Assembly: GCF_004364345.1 (NCBI RefSeq)
Contig: NZ_SOCA01000003.1
Location: forward strand, 124,001 to 188,000
Origin: Prosthecobacter fusiformis
GTDB taxonomy: Bacteria; Verrucomicrobiota; Verrucomicrobiia; Verrucomicrobiales; Verrucomicrobiaceae
Reading direction: 5' to 3'
DNA length: 64,000 bases
The notes beneath the pieces were generated by a model, which saw nothing but the letters and a program-made list of their open reading frames with translations, was not told the origin of the DNA and did not search any database. How positions within the stretch are numbered: position 1 is the first letter of the stretch; each line of letters starts with the position of its first letter. Both the position numbers and the translations under genes were made by a program. Below, one piece after another: positions 5,770-39,164 of the stretch.

Positions 5770-6636
5770 ATGAAGCCTGTCTTTGAGAAAGTCCCGCGCA
5801 GGGACTGGGAGTCCTTTCACTGTGAACTCGTGCATGGACCCGACTACGGTACACGCTGGCATTTTCACCCGGAATTCCAGATCACCCTGGCCATCCGCAG
5901 TCGGGGCCACCGGGTCGTGGGGGATAACATCGCGCCCATCAGCGACGGAGACTTGGTGCTGGTGGGGTCCAATCTGCCCCACGTCTGGCATCAGGAGGAG
6001 GGTGCGGGCATCGTGGATGCTATCATCATTCGCTTTGAGGAAAACTTTCTCGGCAAGGATATGATGGCCCTGCCGGAGCTGGAGTCTGTCCGCCGTCTGC
6101 TGCGCCGGGCCAGCCGGGGGCTGGAAATCAAGGGGGCAGTCCGCAAAGAAGTTTCGCTGCGCCTGCGCCATCTTGCGGAGAGTGATGGGCTGACCCGTGT
6201 CGTGGACTTGTTGGCGGTGCTGGACGTCATGTCTCGTGCCAAGGACCTCAAGCCCCTGGCCAGCGCTGCTTATGAGCCAACACTCCATGCCACGGACCAA
6301 GGCCGCATGGAGCGCGTCTGCGACTACATCCACCAGCACCTCACGGAGGATATCGACCGGGCGCAGCTCGCCAAGCTGGCCCACCTGAGCGAGGGGGCCT
6401 TCAGCCGCTTCTTCCGCTCCCGTACCGGCAAGACGGTGCCTGAATACATCAACGAAGTCCGCATTGGCCGTGCCTGCCGGATGATCGCCGAAGACCAGAA
6501 CAACATCACGGACATTGCCCTGGACTGCGGATACCGGAACTTGGCCAACTTCAACCGCCGCTTCCGCGAAGTGGTCGGCAGCACGCCCCGTGAATACCGC
6601 ACCCAAATGCGTACGTTGGGTGGCAAGCCAGGCTGA
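5770..6636 (+). CDS. AraC-family transcriptional regulator with N-terminal cupin
   Basis: Product of 288 residues. The N-terminal AraC-type cupin has the metal- or ligand-site pattern RWHFHPEFQI (about residues 31-40) and a glycine-rich GDLVLVGSNLPHVW strand (about 60-73). The C-terminal double helix-turn-helix spans roughly 185-285, with the diagnostic second-HTH text DIALDCGYRNLANFNRRFR. It probably senses a sugar or sugar acid, as most cupin AraC proteins do. ATG 5770 is preceded by AGGA; the longer open frame from 5683 adds sequence without cupin similarity. It is divergent from the kinase/methyltransferase pair, so those genes are one candidate target. Confidence 0.88.
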   Translation: MKPVFEKVPRRDWESFHCELVHGPDYGTRWHFHPEFQITLAIRSRGHRVVGDNIAPISDGDLVLVGSNLPHVWHQEEGAGIVDAIIIRFEENFLGKDMMALPELESVRRLLRRASRGLEIKGAVRKEVSLRLRHLAESDGLTRVVDLLAVLDVMSRAKDLKPLASAAYEPTLHATDQGRMERVCDYIHQHLTEDIDRAQLAKLAHLSEGAFSRFFRSRTGKTVPEYINEVRIGRACRMIAEDQNNITDIALDCGYRNLANFNRRFREVVGSTPREYRTQMRTLGGKPG

Positions 6637-7264: not shown

Positions 7265-10200
7265 TCAGAGGCGTTTGCTGGTGAACTGGCGGCTTTGGAC
7301 AACGGCGAGTACAGCGGCGGAAAAGTGGCCGTCATTGTCGGCCAGATCGGTCTTGATCTTTTGCATCAGGAGCTTGTCGGTGGGCAGGAGCTGACGGCCG
7401 AGGGCGAAGCCGATGAGCTTGCGGGAAAAGTGGTGGGTGAGCTGGTCTTCCTGAGTTTTCAGGTAGTCGCGCAGACCTTCGAAACCGACAAACTTGGCAC
7501 CGCCTTTGACCTGGCCGGAGGTATCCAGGGGCAGGCCGGCATCGTCCTTTTCACGGAAGCGGCCAATGGCGTCGAAGCCTTCCAGGGCAAAGCCGAGGGG
7601 GTCAATGCGGTCATGGCAGCCGGAGCAGGATTTGGAGGCGCGGTGCTGCTCCAGCATCTCGCGGACGGTGGCGGGTTTGGGGCCGTGTTCCTTAAGTTCG
7701 GGCACGTCGGCGGGCGGCGGCGGGACGGGGGTGCCAAGCACCGCCTGAAGCAGCCAGTTGCCCCGAAGCACGGGGCTGGTGCGGTGACTGCGGGAGGTCT
7801 TGGTGAGCATGCTGCCCTGGCCTAACAAACCTCCGCGATGGTGGTTCTTCACATTGACTTTGCGAAACTCCTCACCCTTCACATCCGGCACTCCGTAGTG
7901 CTTGGCCAGGCGTTCATTGAGGAAGGTGTAATCCGCGCCGATGATCTCTTGCACAGGGCGGTCTTCACGGATCAGGCTGGTGAAAAAGAGGGTGGTTTCA
8001 CGGTCGAGATCGCGGCGCAGTTCGGGGGTGAATTCCGGGAATTTTTTGTCATCCACGGCAGCGTGTTTGTCGAAGCCCTTGAACTCCAGCCACTGGCCGG
8101 CGAATTCCTTGGCCATGGCCTCGGCTTTCGGGTCCTTGAGCATGCGCTTCACCTGGGCGGTGAGGACTTCAGGCTTCAAAAGGGTGCCATCGGTGGCTGC
8201 TTTGCGCAGTTGCCAGTCGGGTTGGGAGGACCAGAGGAAGTAGCTGAGGCGGGAAGCGAGTTCCCAGGCATTGAGGGTGACTTCCGTGGTGGAGGGTTTT
8301 GGAGTATTGGCTTCAGCCGGGGTTTGGGCTGAGGCCTTTTCTGAACCGGCTGAAGCCGGGACTACAGAGCGGGGAGGGATTTCAGCGCTGCCGTGGGTTT
8401 TTGCGGGGGTGGAGGTTTTAGGGGCAAGGTTTGCGGTTTGGGCTGCGGCTTTTCCTGAACCGGCTGAAGCCGGGACTACAGAGCGGGGAGGGGTGGCCGC
8501 TGTATTTTCGGTGCCGATCTCGGTTTTATACAGAAAGTTAGGCGAGACGAGGATGAGGGTGACGACTTCGCGGGCGGCGGATTCACGATCCAAATCCTTG
8601 GTTAGGCCAGCCTGATAAAGTTTCGAAAGCTGAGTGCGCTCAGCATGGGTGGTGGGGCGGCGCCAGGCCTGGCTGGCGAAGCGGTGCAGGTGCTGGCGCA
8701 TGAGGTCGTCATACTGGATCTGCTGCTCTTTTTTGAGACCGTCGCGGACGAGGAAACTCCAGTCGAGGCGCATCTGTTCCAGGCGTTTCTTTTCGGTTTC
8801 CGGGATGATGGGTTTGAGTTGCTCATCGCTGAAATAATAGACACCAGGGCCGGGTTTTTCACTGTAGAGGTTGCGTGCCACCTCTTCCAGACGACGCTCG
8901 AGCATGTCTGGGAAGACGGCCTTCATGCGGCTGAAATCTGACATGGTTCTGCGATGGGCATCAGTGTTGCGTTTCCAGACGGTGAGGACCCCCGGGATGA
9001 TGTCTTTGGGATTTGGCGGTGTGTCCACGGCCAGGGTCCATTGCACGGTGGCCAAGTCCACTTCGGGTGTTTGCATGTCCAGGCGACCGGAGCCAAAGAC
9101 TTCCTTGGAGTCCTCAGGCAGGGGCAGGGTGATGATGACGGGAGCTTTGGCGGCAAGGATGTTTTCACCGATCCGGTTTTTGCCCAAAGGATCCTTGCCA
9201 AAATAAGACAGGGCTTTTTCAGACTCGGCGATGCGCTTCTTCAGCAGGTCTGCGGTGATGTCTTTGGGCGCAGGTTTACCCGATTCGATTTCTTTGATCA
9301 GCTTTTTATCCGCGTCCCGGCGCTGGCGCATGAAAGGTGCGTATTCGTGATTTTTTCCGTTTTTGAGCCGGACGGTGAGGCCTGTGAAGTTGACATAGTC
9401 ACCGCCATTGCCATCGCCAATATCACCGACGACGACATGGAATTCACTTTTGCCCAGGGTCACCACGCGGTTGCCGCCATAGGTGCGGAGACCGTCGGCG
9501 TCCTGCTGGCGGCGCTGCACTCCGGTGCCGGGCTTGTCTGGGTTTTCTGGGTTGTTCCAGGAATGACGTTGTTTTTGGATGGCCTGTAGGCTGGCCAGGA
9601 CTGGGGCGGGAACTTCTTTGGGTTTTGCGGAATCCGGCGGTGGCAGATTGCGCCAAGGCACTTTGGTCAGGTCCAGGAAACGGGACTGGGTCTTGGTGTC
9701 ATTGAGCATGGTCCACCAGTTGGTCAGGAAGGCGATGGAGAGATTCGCGTCTTTGGCGAGCTGCTCGAGGGAAGCGGCTCCAGTGAGATCCTTGTGCTTC
9801 CATTTCCAGCAGGCCAGCATGTAATCAGCTTCCCGCAGTTCCCGGTCATAGGTGGGCAGATGCGGGCCGGACATTTTCTGGTACCACACATAAAGAGCCT
9901 GCTGGGCCTGGCCTTTGACTTGGGCATTGCCGCGCATGCCGACGCGTTGTGGATGAAAGGTGACACCGGTGCCGGGCAGGATGGTGGCGTGGTCCGCCAG
10001 CTTGCGGGCGGCAGAGAGGTATTTGTCGAGCTGGGCCGGATTAACAAAAAGCGTGTCACCGGTGTTGGCGAAACCTTCGCCGCCGCCGCCATCCGGCTGG
10101 AACTCTTTAGCGAGGCCGTAGTTCACCCCCGTGAGATCACGGATGGTGTAGTCATATTCGGCATTGGTCAGGCGGCGGAGGGTGACGGCTCCGGGATCGC

Positions 10201-10546
10201 CCGCATTGGCGGTGGCCACGGCATCCATGGAGGCGGTGGCCCATGTGAGGAGGTTCTTTTTTTCGTCGGCGGAAAGCTGGGTTTCGTCTTCAGGTGGCAT
10301 TTCACCTTTGGCGATGACGTCCTTCACCTTTTCCCAGAGGGCGTATTCCTTTTCCACGGAGGGGTCCGTTTCCAGTCGCTCCAGATCCACTCCCCCTTTG
10401 GTCTTTTTGCCGTTGTGGCAGTCGTAGCAGGATTCGGCGAGCACCGGCTGTACAGATTTCCATTCGGGGGCCGCCTGGAGCGACGCCGCGAAAGACGTGA
10501 GGATGAAAAGACGAACGGAAGGGGGCATCCGGTGAAGCATGGGCAA
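7265..10546 (-). CDS. Exported DUF1587/DUF1592/DUF1588/DUF1585 cytochrome-c-type protein
   Basis: Large PVC-specific exported protein of 1093 residues. A signal peptide (SVRLFILTSFAASLQA) is followed by a haem-c site CYDCH at 40-44. DUF1587 (LRRLTNAEYDYTIRDL) and DUF1592 regions follow, then a second CxxCH in SCSGCHDRIDPLGFALEGFD (DUF1588) and a C-terminal DUF1585 segment ending HHFSRKLIGFALGR. Such proteins are thought to work with exported DUF1552/DUF1501 proteins in polymer degradation, but the reaction is unproven. Between SPNFLYKTEIG and ELASRLSYFLWSSQPD, which are usually close together, lies a low-complexity insert (about residues 680-755) built from two copies of a palindromic DNA repeat. 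ATG codons at 10546, 10540 and 10531 are all possible starts. Confidence 0.85.
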   Translation of the reverse strand: MPMLHRMPPSVRLFILTSFAASLQAAPEWKSVQPVLAESCYDCHNGKKTKGGVDLERLETDPSVEKEYALWEKVKDVIAKGEMPPEDETQLSADEKKNLLTWATASMDAVATANAGDPGAVTLRRLTNAEYDYTIRDLTGVNYGLAKEFQPDGGGGEGFANTGDTLFVNPAQLDKYLSAARKLADHATILPGTGVTFHPQRVGMRGNAQVKGQAQQALYVWYQKMSGPHLPTYDRELREADYMLACWKWKHKDLTGAASLEQLAKDANLSIAFLTNWWTMLNDTKTQSRFLDLTKVPWRNLPPPDSAKPKEVPAPVLASLQAIQKQRHSWNNPENPDKPGTGVQRRQQDADGLRTYGGNRVVTLGKSEFHVVVGDIGDGNGGDYVNFTGLTVRLKNGKNHEYAPFMRQRRDADKKLIKEIESGKPAPKDITADLLKKRIAESEKALSYFGKDPLGKNRIGENILAAKAPVIITLPLPEDSKEVFGSGRLDMQTPEVDLATVQWTLAVDTPPNPKDIIPGVLTVWKRNTDAHRRTMSDFSRMKAVFPDMLERRLEEVARNLYSEKPGPGVYYFSDEQLKPIIPETEKKRLEQMRLDWSFLVRDGLKKEQQIQYDDLMRQHLHRFASQAWRRPTTHAERTQLSKLYQAGLTKDLDRESAAREVVTLILVSPNFLYKTEIGTENTAATPPRSVVPASAGSGKAAAQTANLAPKTSTPAKTHGSAEIPPRSVVPASAGSEKASAQTPAEANTPKPSTTEVTLNAWELASRLSYFLWSSQPDWQLRKAATDGTLLKPEVLTAQVKRMLKDPKAEAMAKEFAGQWLEFKGFDKHAAVDDKKFPEFTPELRRDLDRETTLFFTSLIREDRPVQEIIGADYTFLNERLAKHYGVPDVKGEEFRKVNVKNHHRGGLLGQGSMLTKTSRSHRTSPVLRGNWLLQAVLGTPVPPPPADVPELKEHGPKPATVREMLEQHRASKSCSGCHDRIDPLGFALEGFDAIGRFREKDDAGLPLDTSGQVKGGAKFVGFEGLRDYLKTQEDQLTHHFSRKLIGFALGRQLLPTDKLLMQKIKTDLADNDGHFSAAVLAVVQSRQFTSKRL
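8322..8378. repeat. Palindromic repeat copy A inside the DUF1592 gene
   Basis: A 57-bp unit centred on the palindrome CCGGCTGAAGCCGG, ending in GGGACTACAGAGCGGGGAGGG. It matches 8436-8492 almost exactly, with a period of 114 bp (38 codons). It is translated on the minus strand as PPRSVVPASAGS. The palindromic core looks like an extragenic REP-type element, but here it is inside an open reading frame. Confidence 0.85.
8436..8492. repeat. Palindromic repeat copy B inside the DUF1592 gene
   Basis: Second copy of the 57-bp unit, differing from copy A only at a few positions near its left end (gaggccttttctg against gcggcttttcctg). The 114-bp spacing keeps the reading frame, so copy number change adds or removes whole blocks of linker residues. 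Confidence 0.85.
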
Positions 10547-10960
10547 GGCCAGAGTTTGGGGGGCAAAAAGGATACGCCGCCAGAAGGCGGGTTTATGATT
10601 TATGCCTTAGGATTTACGATTTGAAAGGATCGAAGCTGGGTTGTTGTTGGCGGATGTTGGGCGAAATTGGGGAATGGGGATGATTTTCAAATTTTCCCCA
10701 TCTGGGGATGACGGGAGCTAATGCATTGTAAATGAACGTATTGTGATGGGAAAATGATTCCCCATGAAATCCCCATTGTTCCCCAAACATCCCCATGGGG
10801 AAATGCATATCCCCATGGGCTGGAAACGATGGAAAGTGAAGCGCATGGCCAGGCCGGTAACGTCTGCGAGACGCCATGCCAGTGCAAGGAGGTGCGACCC
10901 CGAGTTGGGGTAAGTGGGGAATAAAGTTTGAGGCGCAGGACTGCGTCTTTACCTGCGGCC
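10547..10960. other. Intergenic region of 414 bp with a CCCCAT/ATGGGG-rich element
   Basis: No conserved gene is recognisable. The middle part (10689-10823) is rich in CCCCAT and ATGGGG words and is related to a second element upstream of apt (38375-38528). The part nearest the DUF1592 gene (10560-10630) is a nondescript leader. Confidence 0.6.
10689..10823 (-). repeat. Dispersed CCCCAT-rich element, copy 1
   Basis: The core 10689-10775, read on the minus strand, aligns without gaps to 38442-38528: 63 of 87 bases are identical by hand count. In one frame both copies read WGFHGE, then H, FI, NAL, IP and WGK at identical spacing, with synonymous changes such as TTT/TTC, ATT/ATC and TTA/TTG. 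Just upstream both have a hairpin-forming GGGGA...TCCCC around an ATG (here ATG at 10808, followed by CATTTCCCCAT). It lies 5' of and co-directional with the DUF1592 gene. It could be a structured RNA leader, a micropeptide gene (about 65 residues, 10808 to 10614) or a decayed repeat. Confidence 0.65.
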
Positions 10961-38244: not shown

Positions 38245-38630
38245 GACCCCCATCCTTTTTATCCCACTTGGGCCAAGTCGGGGGCGCATCCCCTTGCGCT
38301 CCAGCCGCCTGTTTCGGAGATTGCTCCGTGCGAGCTGACCTTGAGCCTGAATCCTATAGCCATGGGGCCTCACCAGTCCGCATTTTCCCCAGGGGGATGG
38401 ATTTCCCCATTCTCCCCACAGACCATCTTAAAATCCCCGCCTGGGGATTCCATGGGGAACGTTATCCCCATCGGAAAGCGTTCATCATCAATGCATTGCG
38501 CCTTATGATCCCCCCATGGGGAAAAATTTCGTTTTCTTCCCCATCCCCATCGGAAACGCGCCCACCAGCATCCTCCACCTTCAGGAGATCCCCCTTGCAT
38601 CTCCGTATCGGTCCCGCACACTGGCGGGCC
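38245..38630. other. Intergenic region of 386 bp upstream of apt with a CCCCAT-rich element
   Basis: The stretch has no independent gene. Its centre (38375-38528) is the second copy of the dispersed CCCCAT/ATGGGG element. The frame that contains the WGFHGE...WGK text runs in phase into apt without a stop, but the apt family starts at 38631. Confidence 0.6.
38375..38528 (+). repeat. Dispersed CCCCAT-rich element, copy 2
   Basis: The core 38442-38528 aligns without gaps to the minus-strand core of copy 1 (10689-10775). An ATG at 38397 preceded by GGGGG and followed by GATTTCCCCAT matches the ATG and hairpin region of copy 1. The ATG-to-WGF distance is 15 codons here against 11 in copy 1. It is 5' of apt and on the same strand, about 100 bp from the apt start codon. 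Confidence 0.65.
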
Positions 38631-39164
38631 ATGTCGCCTGACTCCCTTGAACGCCTCCGCTCGACCATCCGCGATGTACCGGATTTTCCTCAACCGGGTA
38701 TCCTTTTCAAAGACATCACCCCCGTCCTGGCGGATGCCGAATTGATGAAGGCCGCCATCGAAGGCATGGCCGAAAACTTCGTCGGACAAAAGGTGGACAA
38801 GGTCGTCGGTATCGATGCCCGTGGATTCATCTTTGGGGCCTTGATCGCCCAGCACCTCGGGGCCGGTTTTGTGCCTGTGCGTAAAAAGGGCAAGCTGCCG
38901 TGGAAAACACGCGGCGTGGATTACAGCCTGGAATACGGCACCAACAGTGTGGAGATGCACCTCGACGCCCTGGCTCCTGGGGAGCGTGTCGTCCTAGCGG
39001 ATGACCTCCTGGCCACCGGTGGCACCGCCGGGGCAGCGCTGGAGCTGATCCGTGAATCCGGTGCGGAACTGCTCGGCTCCGTGTTTTTCATTGAACTGGC
39101 TTTCCTCTGCGGCCGGGAAAAGCTGGAAAACTGCGGCCCCATCCATTCATTGCTGACTTTTTGA
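38631..39164 (+). CDS. apt: Adenine phosphoribosyltransferase
   Basis: Purine-salvage enzyme of 177 residues: adenine + PRPP to AMP + pyrophosphate. It has the APRT opening IRDVPDFPQPGILFKDITPVL, VVGIDARGFIFGALIA, the flexible loop RKKGKLPWKT, and the PRPP motif VVLADDLLATGGTA. ATG 38631 matches the family start; the open frame further upstream is the repeat element. glnD follows after 12 bp, so the two may be co-transcribed. Confidence 0.95.
   Translation: MSPDSLERLRSTIRDVPDFPQPGILFKDITPVLADAELMKAAIEGMAENFVGQKVDKVVGIDARGFIFGALIAQHLGAGFVPVRKKGKLPWKTRGVDYSLEYGTNSVEMHLDALAPGERVVLADDLLATGGTAGAALELIRESGAELLGSVFFIELAFLCGREKLENCGPIHSLLTF

Follow-up and report, generated by a model that had tools for sequence, protein, structure and literature searches.

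The two copies in the window

The window, that is, the whole 64,000-nucleotide stretch of Prosthecobacter fusiformis DNA analyzed here, contains two copies of a repeated element. Each stands in front of a gene of its own orientation in our gene calls, as the first-pass annotation had claimed. Copy 1 lies on the minus strand in front of a gene for a protein of approximately 1088 amino acids that has a CxxCH motif near its N-terminus (7265-10528, minus strand; own codon-usage gene caller and translation). Copy 2 lies on the plus strand in front of a gene for an adenine phosphoribosyltransferase-like protein (38631-39164, plus strand; same gene caller), which we presume from its sequence to be apt.

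Copy 1 begins with a promoter-like module that lies beyond the array (10857-10916, minus strand). The module comprises a palindrome box, CACTTACCCCAACT, separated by 14 nt from CTTGC (10884-10916; pattern match with two mismatches, G000:C3:134884-134916 in contig coordinates), and an overlapping dyad, CTTGCA-N18-GACGTTAC (10857-10888), which scores highest in the window under a matrix whose training set left out both window copies. The array follows on the same strand with a left arm of phased TGGGGA/TCCCCA boxes (10759-10820) and a core that matches positions 2-99 of the family model R1 (10669-10766; E = 3.5e-22 in its own genome). An IHF-consensus-like site with two mismatches to WATCAANNNNTTR (10719-10731), the invariant palindrome TCCCCAGATGGGGA (10695-10708) and the right boxes TCCCCATTCCCCA (10668-10680) complete the copy.

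Copy 2 repeats this order on the plus strand. Its module (38265-38324) consists of the palindrome box CACTTGGGCCAAGT with CTTGC after 14 nt (38265-38297; one mismatch, G000:C3:162265-162297) and the dyad CTTGCG-N18-GAGATTGC (38293-38324), the second-best score in the window. The left arm of phased boxes (38385-38460) is followed by the core (38451-38548; E = 1.2e-20 in its own genome), the IHF-consensus-like site CATCAATGCATTG with one mismatch (38486-38498), the invariant palindrome TCCCCCCATGGGGA (38509-38522) and the right boxes TTCCCCATCCCCA (38537-38549). In both copies, the arms and right boxes were assigned from the sequence and the slot map, the IHF-like sites from the sequence and a family-wide match, and the palindromes from the sequence and the family alignment. 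Between the array and apt, a gene-proximal block, CTTGCA-N18-CACACTG (38595-38625, plus strand), appears to be native; by eye, a similar block precedes apt in the orthologous upstream regions of array-free relatives. Across the genus, a similar CTTGCA-N18 block is seen by eye near the apt start codon (38595-38630 in the window; orthologues L161-L174), so close to it that the transcript would be nearly leaderless.

The alignment of the two cores is exactly as previously described: 63 of 87 bases and 17 of 29 residues are identical between the minus strand of 10689-10775 and the plus strand of 38442-38528. No other ungapped place in the window does better than 39 of 87, and the best of 20 shuffled cores scores 41 of 87. 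The reported upstream GGGGA...TCCCC inverted repeat is also found in the sequence. The bounds of 10689-10823 given for copy 1 do locate the element but are too short, as the array covers at least 10668-10820; the copy-2 core is likewise too small for an array that spans approximately 38385-38550. The heptamer ATGGGGA is over-represented in the window, with 24 occurrences versus 13.3 expected.

Family size and distribution

The element belongs to a large dispersed family, one of the options that the first-pass annotation had raised, and its own genome (G000) holds far more than the two window copies, so that the two-copy outcome which that annotation had named as refuting its idea does not apply. 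A blastn search with the 151-base region finds 25 places in G000, itself included. A sequence-only family model built from 22 copies detects at least 75 copies at 71 loci at E < 1e-8, with 150 of 1598 first-look candidates scored, and at least nine weaker matches, partial or on the opposite strand and up to E = 0.1, bring the total to at least 84.

A model search of 56 relatives, own genome included, yields matches only in G000 (at least 73), G034 (at least 27) and G019 (at least 2). A second search of 38 genus genomes at E <= 0.01 finds at least 77 copies in G000, at least 30 in G034, at least 16 in G056 and at least 2 in G019, along with one weak partial match in G023 (E = 0.004) and no array in the 33 other genus genomes at 107 scored candidates per genome. 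Because only part of the first-look candidates was scored, these counts are lower bounds and the absences hold to the scored depth. An exact-pattern scan of GTDB genome contigs returns one locus, in a Prosthecobacter MAG, and gives no sign of wider spread, with a pattern that misses diverged copies and a contig set from which own-genome or near-identical records may be absent. A viral origin was rejected on the basis of zero exact pattern matches among viral contigs.

The copies analyzed below are the 103 that score above 30 bits (75 from G000, 26 from G034 and 2 from G019; 100 loci), 9 of 112 matches having been dropped below this score; G056 copies were counted only and stand outside the 103. 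Counts that depend on the alignment use the 91 or 97 copies with a clear central palindrome. Four loci (L089, L090, L094 and L108) carry two tandem arrays each, with starts approximately 180-400 bases apart, and the two arrays of L090 share 94% identity over 155 bases.

Array anatomy

TCCCCA/TGGGGA boxes occupy fixed slots with a spacing of approximately 10-11 bp on both sides of the IHF-consensus match. Relative to the invariant palindrome TCCCCNNNTGGGGA, the C-box slots lie at -94, -84, -74, -43, +1, +29 and approximately +36, and the G-box slots at -66, -55 and +9, with an inverted C box at -54 as the alternative to the -55 slot. The left-side boxes are periodic at 10-10.25 bp (326 C boxes and 170 G boxes). 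Of 97 copies, 60 have a G box in the -54/-55 slot, 36 have a C box and 1 has neither, and the two members of 4 of the 13 orthologous pairs differ in the orientation of this box. Such flipping fits a protein that reads double-stranded DNA.

The distance from the -43 box to the palindrome is 43-45 in 88 of 95 measured copies (43 in 8, 44 in 60 and 45 in 20), and only some of the columns within it are constrained. Columns 37-49 spell WATCAANNNNTTR, the E. coli IHF consensus, and the four middle positions of this site are weakly constrained. At model position 37, this consensus is matched with at most two mismatches in 68 of 97 copies, with at most one in 39 and exactly in 5, versus 23 of 97 copies within two mismatches at the next-best model position. 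Judged from its sequence, the array center is likely a bending site. Two HU/IHF genes are present in each of 10 genomes, whether or not the genome has arrays, and no dedicated bending protein is therefore visible; a dedicated IHF paralogue was considered and rejected on these counts.

Promoter-like module

Expectation-maximisation on the upstream flanks identifies a dyad, CTTGC[A/G]-N18-GATATT, on the coding strand of 67 of the 103 copies, at a threshold that 5% of shuffles pass; the matrix was trained and tested on the same copies. A clear dyad is absent from 36 copies, and of the 81 intervals that separate an array from its gene, only 1 contains a dyad. When the matrix is retrained with the two window copies, and only these, left out, the two best scores in 64 kb are those of both window modules (10.3 and 9.7; next 9.3). 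With this retrained matrix, scores above 10 are found in the 103 upstream flanks 51 times on the plus strand versus once on the minus strand. The same threshold gives one match in the window, none in 52 kb of own-genome DNA that is free of arrays and four in 212 kb of tgt/apt loci from other genomes. A lax threshold of 6 gives 26 matches in the window, and the dyad is thus distinctive at the strong end only.

The full module reads palindrome ACTTRGCCCAAGT, a fixed 14 nt, CTTGC, N18 and GATATT, is present whole or in part in many copies and precedes the array at a variable distance. This distance exhibits no helical phasing (p >= 0.15) and so gives no sign of a fixed contact with polymerase. 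The palindrome-CTTGC composite, with up to two mismatches, occurs 34 times in G000, 4 times in G034, once in G056 and not at all in the other 34 genomes searched, including G019 with its two arrays; a reversed control pattern gives 0-1 matches per genome. Among the 34 G000 modules, 25 lie less than 0.5 kb from an array and 3 more less than 1 kb (28 in total), and the other 6 have no array within 20 kb on the contig. Three of these six precede an O-like replication gene, and two are near contig ends.

Could the array serve replication instead of transcription? As an origin-like iteron/IHF site, it would be tied to a phage-type replication module of an O-like initiator and a DnaC-like loader. 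The O-like protein does track the array-rich genomes, as it is found in G000 (three copies), G034 (two) and G056 (one) and in no other of the 37 genomes searched, apart from a marginal match in G028 (E = 9e-4). Moreover, the G000 O-like genes have the same palindrome-CTTGC module upstream, and the phased boxes, the IHF site and the inward transcription are reminiscent of the lambda ori. However, the O-like genes have no array in their vicinity: the palindrome is missing from the G000 stretches examined, and by coordinates the nearest array is more than 20 kb away. These stretches are also without a strong CTTGC-N18-GATATT dyad (0 matches above 10). G019 has two arrays and no O-like match, the orientation of the arrays towards genes is left unexplained, and any accessory gene common to three relatives would give the same pattern. 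We consider an origin-like role very improbable.

Coding and RNA structure

The first-pass annotation had proposed a micropeptide gene or a formerly coding repeat, because the window copies have 17 of 29 residues in common. In the family, the proposed frame (model positions 14-76) is open in 60 of 91 copies, versus 55.0 (sd 3.2) for column shuffles (P ~0.07, not significant), and the 41 stops compare with 43.3 expected and fall in 31 of the 91 copies. Another forward frame behaves alike (56 open versus 51.7 expected). The 43/44/45 variation in box spacing puts many copies out of frame, and the residues are common to both window copies because the DNA boxes are. A coding role was rejected on these stop and spacing statistics and is extremely improbable. 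Instead, the element is probably a landing pad for proteins and encodes no small peptide.

A 5'-leader had been the second suggestion, and its positional part holds: the array lies between the promoter-like dyad and the start codon, with a same-strand gene downstream in 89 of 103 copies. A structured RNA leader, such as an attenuator, a thermosensor or a 5' UTR that binds a protein or sRNA, would act post-transcriptionally from this coding-strand position in a likely 5' UTR, and the folding energy of 52 of the 103 copies is indeed below that of shuffles (mean z = -2.23). The folded RNA itself is not supported, however. The opposite strand of the same 52 copies is just as favorable (z = -2.10), the only hairpin from RNAalifold has five predicted pairs (5 bp) and no compensatory changes, and a scan of column pairs over 91 copies detects no helix-like covariation and no excess at the central dyad. 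The column pairs with the highest scores are close to the diagonal and resemble register artefacts. A G/C flip of one box would remake any RNA fold. Rfam returns no match at the gathering threshold in the 64 kb and none at E <= 1 in 10500-10950. A hairpin leader was rejected for want of covariation and of strand asymmetry in folding, and regulation through a structured RNA in general appears rather improbable.

Position and downstream genes

The 89 of 103 copies that point at a same-strand downstream gene (binomial p = 1.6e-14) include three gene-overlapping copies and the copy without an upstream neighbor, with genes called by a home-made codon-usage script. By layout, 54 copies lie between same-strand genes and 31 between divergent genes. 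The remainder comprises two groups of 7 and 5 without a downstream same-strand gene, 2 without one neighbor and 4 that overlap predicted genes; 5 of the 103 copies lie between convergent genes. Re-inspection adds three same-strand downstream genes and leaves 11 of 103 copies without one. The median distance from the array to the predicted start codon is 147 nt.

The downstream genes are diverse. A Pfam scan of 30 of the 66 own-genome downstream proteins identifies two tRNA synthetases, the DNA polymerase beta clamp, a UvrD-type helicase, enzymes of histidine and purine synthesis, a Fur-family regulator, an Ada/AlkA-like protein, a type II/IV secretion ATPase and a Wadjet JetA protein, and no Pfam domain at E 1e-5 in 3 of the 30. 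No function common to these 30 proteins is obvious, and a common functional class was rejected on this diversity. Other gene names used here, such as tgt, apt, lepA, alaS and purH, are presumed from the sequence. The Wadjet JetA defense gene (L037:3-1379, minus strand) is preceded by an array, as is its orthologue in G019 (L070), where the JetA-linked array is one of only two arrays found.

Evolution and spread

Array-free relatives keep a block similar to the native one directly before the start codon of tgt, apt, lepA, alaS, pcrA, purH, gltB and other genes, as judged by eye. Where the upstream neighbor is common, the array-bearing intergenic stretch is longer, by approximately 277 bases at purH (versus G018), 388 bases at pheS (versus G034) and 187 bases at pcrA (versus G018). 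The inner ends of these three stretches are unalignable, with no readable target duplication and with gain versus loss not polarized. Copies stand beside the orthologue of an array-adjoining G000 gene in 12 of 26 cases in G034 and 1 of 2 in G019.

Identity within the 13 orthologous pairs is 84% for box columns and 39% for spacer columns, and the flanks of most pairs align poorly. Random paralogous pairs from the own genome give 83% for boxes and 38% for spacers. Saturated spacers between persisting boxes fit selection that would act on the boxes at each locus. Since paralogues are as identical as orthologues, independent gain at the same genes is inseparable from old conservation.

A few copies are near-duplicates. 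Two G034 copies at distant places (L073 and L079) share 88% identity over a 380-base stretch that extends into the flank on either side, and thus represent a duplicated cassette. Two distant G000 copies (L106 and L107) share 96% identity over 378 bases; they overlap predicted genes and may have arisen by segmental duplication. Between genomes, G034 L075 and G019 L068 are 93% identical over 510 bases. Near-duplicates that include flanks support spread of the element as a putative unit of some hundred bases.

These observations bear on a different account, namely that the array is a non-autonomous mobile repeat of the BIME or MITE kind, which persists chiefly because it spreads and has no real role in regulating the neighboring gene. 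Such a repeat would explain why copy number differs sharply among close relatives (at least 75, at least 27-30, at least 16, at least 2 and 0), why intergenic regions are longer where an array is present and why the L073/L079 and L106/L107 cassettes exist; its mosaic, invertible sub-parts and central IHF-like site also resemble BIME-1 as described in PMC2817692. It does not readily explain the strong orientation to same-strand genes (89 of 103), the promoter-like module upstream at a variable distance or the boxes kept while spacers are saturated. All 14 Y1 transposase matches in the genome are, in addition, at least 2.9 kb from the nearest array. We regard a purely self-spreading repeat as unlikely, although it deserves weight.

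Comparison with known systems

The nearest known counterpart is BIME-1/RIB of enterobacteria, in which REP pairs flank an IHF site; the array would work in a similar way but fails the tests for REP membership. RIBs reportedly lie at the 3' ends of transcription units, to judge by the title of the RIB paper, whereas the array stands 5' of genes, is co-oriented with them and often has a promoter-like module upstream. BIME-1 is described as a mosaic with an IHF-binding sequence between oppositely oriented arms (PMC2817692), and a REP unit carries a GTAG-type (or CGTC-type) head on an imperfect palindrome (PMC3733652, PMC2817692). The array is similar to that description in being a dispersed, intergenic and mosaic repeat with opposed arms around an IHF-consensus center. 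It differs in its arms, which are phased TCCCCA boxes and not GTAG-headed REPs. Column counts of 91 aligned copies contain no GTAG or CGTC head, the conserved unit being TCCCCA/TGGGGA, and only 12 of 103 cores contain one of these tetramers at any position.

A further difference from BIME-1 is that no Y1 transposase lies beside the array copies. The own genome has 14 Y1_Tnp matches, and the closest approaches to its 75 arrays are 2.9 kb and then 5.0 kb. Mobilization by a RAYT was rejected on this distance, Y1 transposases being present in the genome. However, only one third of known RAYTs are BIME-linked according to PMC2817692, and the absence of a flanking Y1 gene is thus a weak test. Some of the 14 IS200-like matches lie in open frames that are long or short, unlike a normal gene. 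With REPINs and RAYT-mobilized REPs, the array has in common that it is non-coding, is present in tens of copies with a genome-specific copy number and a few near-duplicates, and resides in a genome with Y1 genes. Unlike REPINs, it has no GTAG-type head in its consensus and no flanking Y1 transposase, and its core spacers are mostly diverged.

Two other systems resemble the element in part. Putative mobile promoters propagate a promoter as a promoter-bearing stretch before many genes, and the element similarly places such a stretch upstream of many unrelated genes in one genome. In contrast to them, most copies are highly diverged, the distance between promoter and array is variable, and the array is an ordered set of binding sites. 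Lambda attP and sigma-54 enhancers are nucleoprotein arrays shaped by IHF, and the array resembles them in how it would work, with short protein boxes lined up on either side of a bend. It differs from both in being dispersed over approximately 70 places and in having no obvious integrase core site or -24/-12 promoter.

Proposed function

We propose, with a probability of roughly one half, that the repeat is a clade-limited, dispersed cis-regulatory promoter-leader cassette in which a putative protein-binding array controls the downstream genes. A sequence-specific protein would bind the boxes on one face of the DNA, and an IHF/HU-type protein would bend the array center. The folded nucleoprotein complex in the leader would then gate transcription from the dedicated promoter into the gene, which would retain its own proximal promoter besides. 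Such a gating mechanism best accounts for the box phasing, a box slot that accepts either orientation, the IHF consensus at the center and the shared direction of array and gene. Against it stand the missing helical phasing between promoter and array, the lack of an array-specific HU/IHF paralogue, the diversity of the downstream genes, the 36 copies with no clear dyad and the 11 copies that have no same-strand gene. The cassette would have spread by insertion or duplication within one branch of the genus and would now be kept by selection on its boxes.

A broader claim, possible but doubtful, is that the element is an undescribed kind of cassette, a promoter joined to an IHF-centered phased array. 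At approximately 70 places in one branch of the genus, it would wire genes, including core genes of translation, replication and nucleotide synthesis, to a common DNA-binding protein on top of their native promoters. No description of the element is found in the literature searched, including the accessible parts of PMC3733652, PMC8049555 and PMC2817692, subscription papers being mostly beyond reach. If the proposed regulatory reading holds, a whole regulon arose as one control element dispersed through a single genus, and IHF-centered dispersed repeats, known at gene ends, would be linked to gene starts. Element-free close relatives would then be natural controls in which the rewiring of global regulation is directly testable.

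A second repeat family

The phage-type replication modules, recognized by PHROG matches to an O-like initiator and a DnaC-like helicase loader, lie at L254:5683-7597, L255:5939-6802 and L256:3-464 (all on the minus strand) and at L263, L267 and L264, and some copies have the O-like gene only. A second repeat family, with units such as CCCTGGCGGGCGCAGC...GCTCGCGCCAGCGAGTGGG, forms direct repeats that flank one O-like gene and recurs near the others (L254:6587-6730 and 7913-8062; L255:5677-5864; L256:784-893 and 6303-6419).
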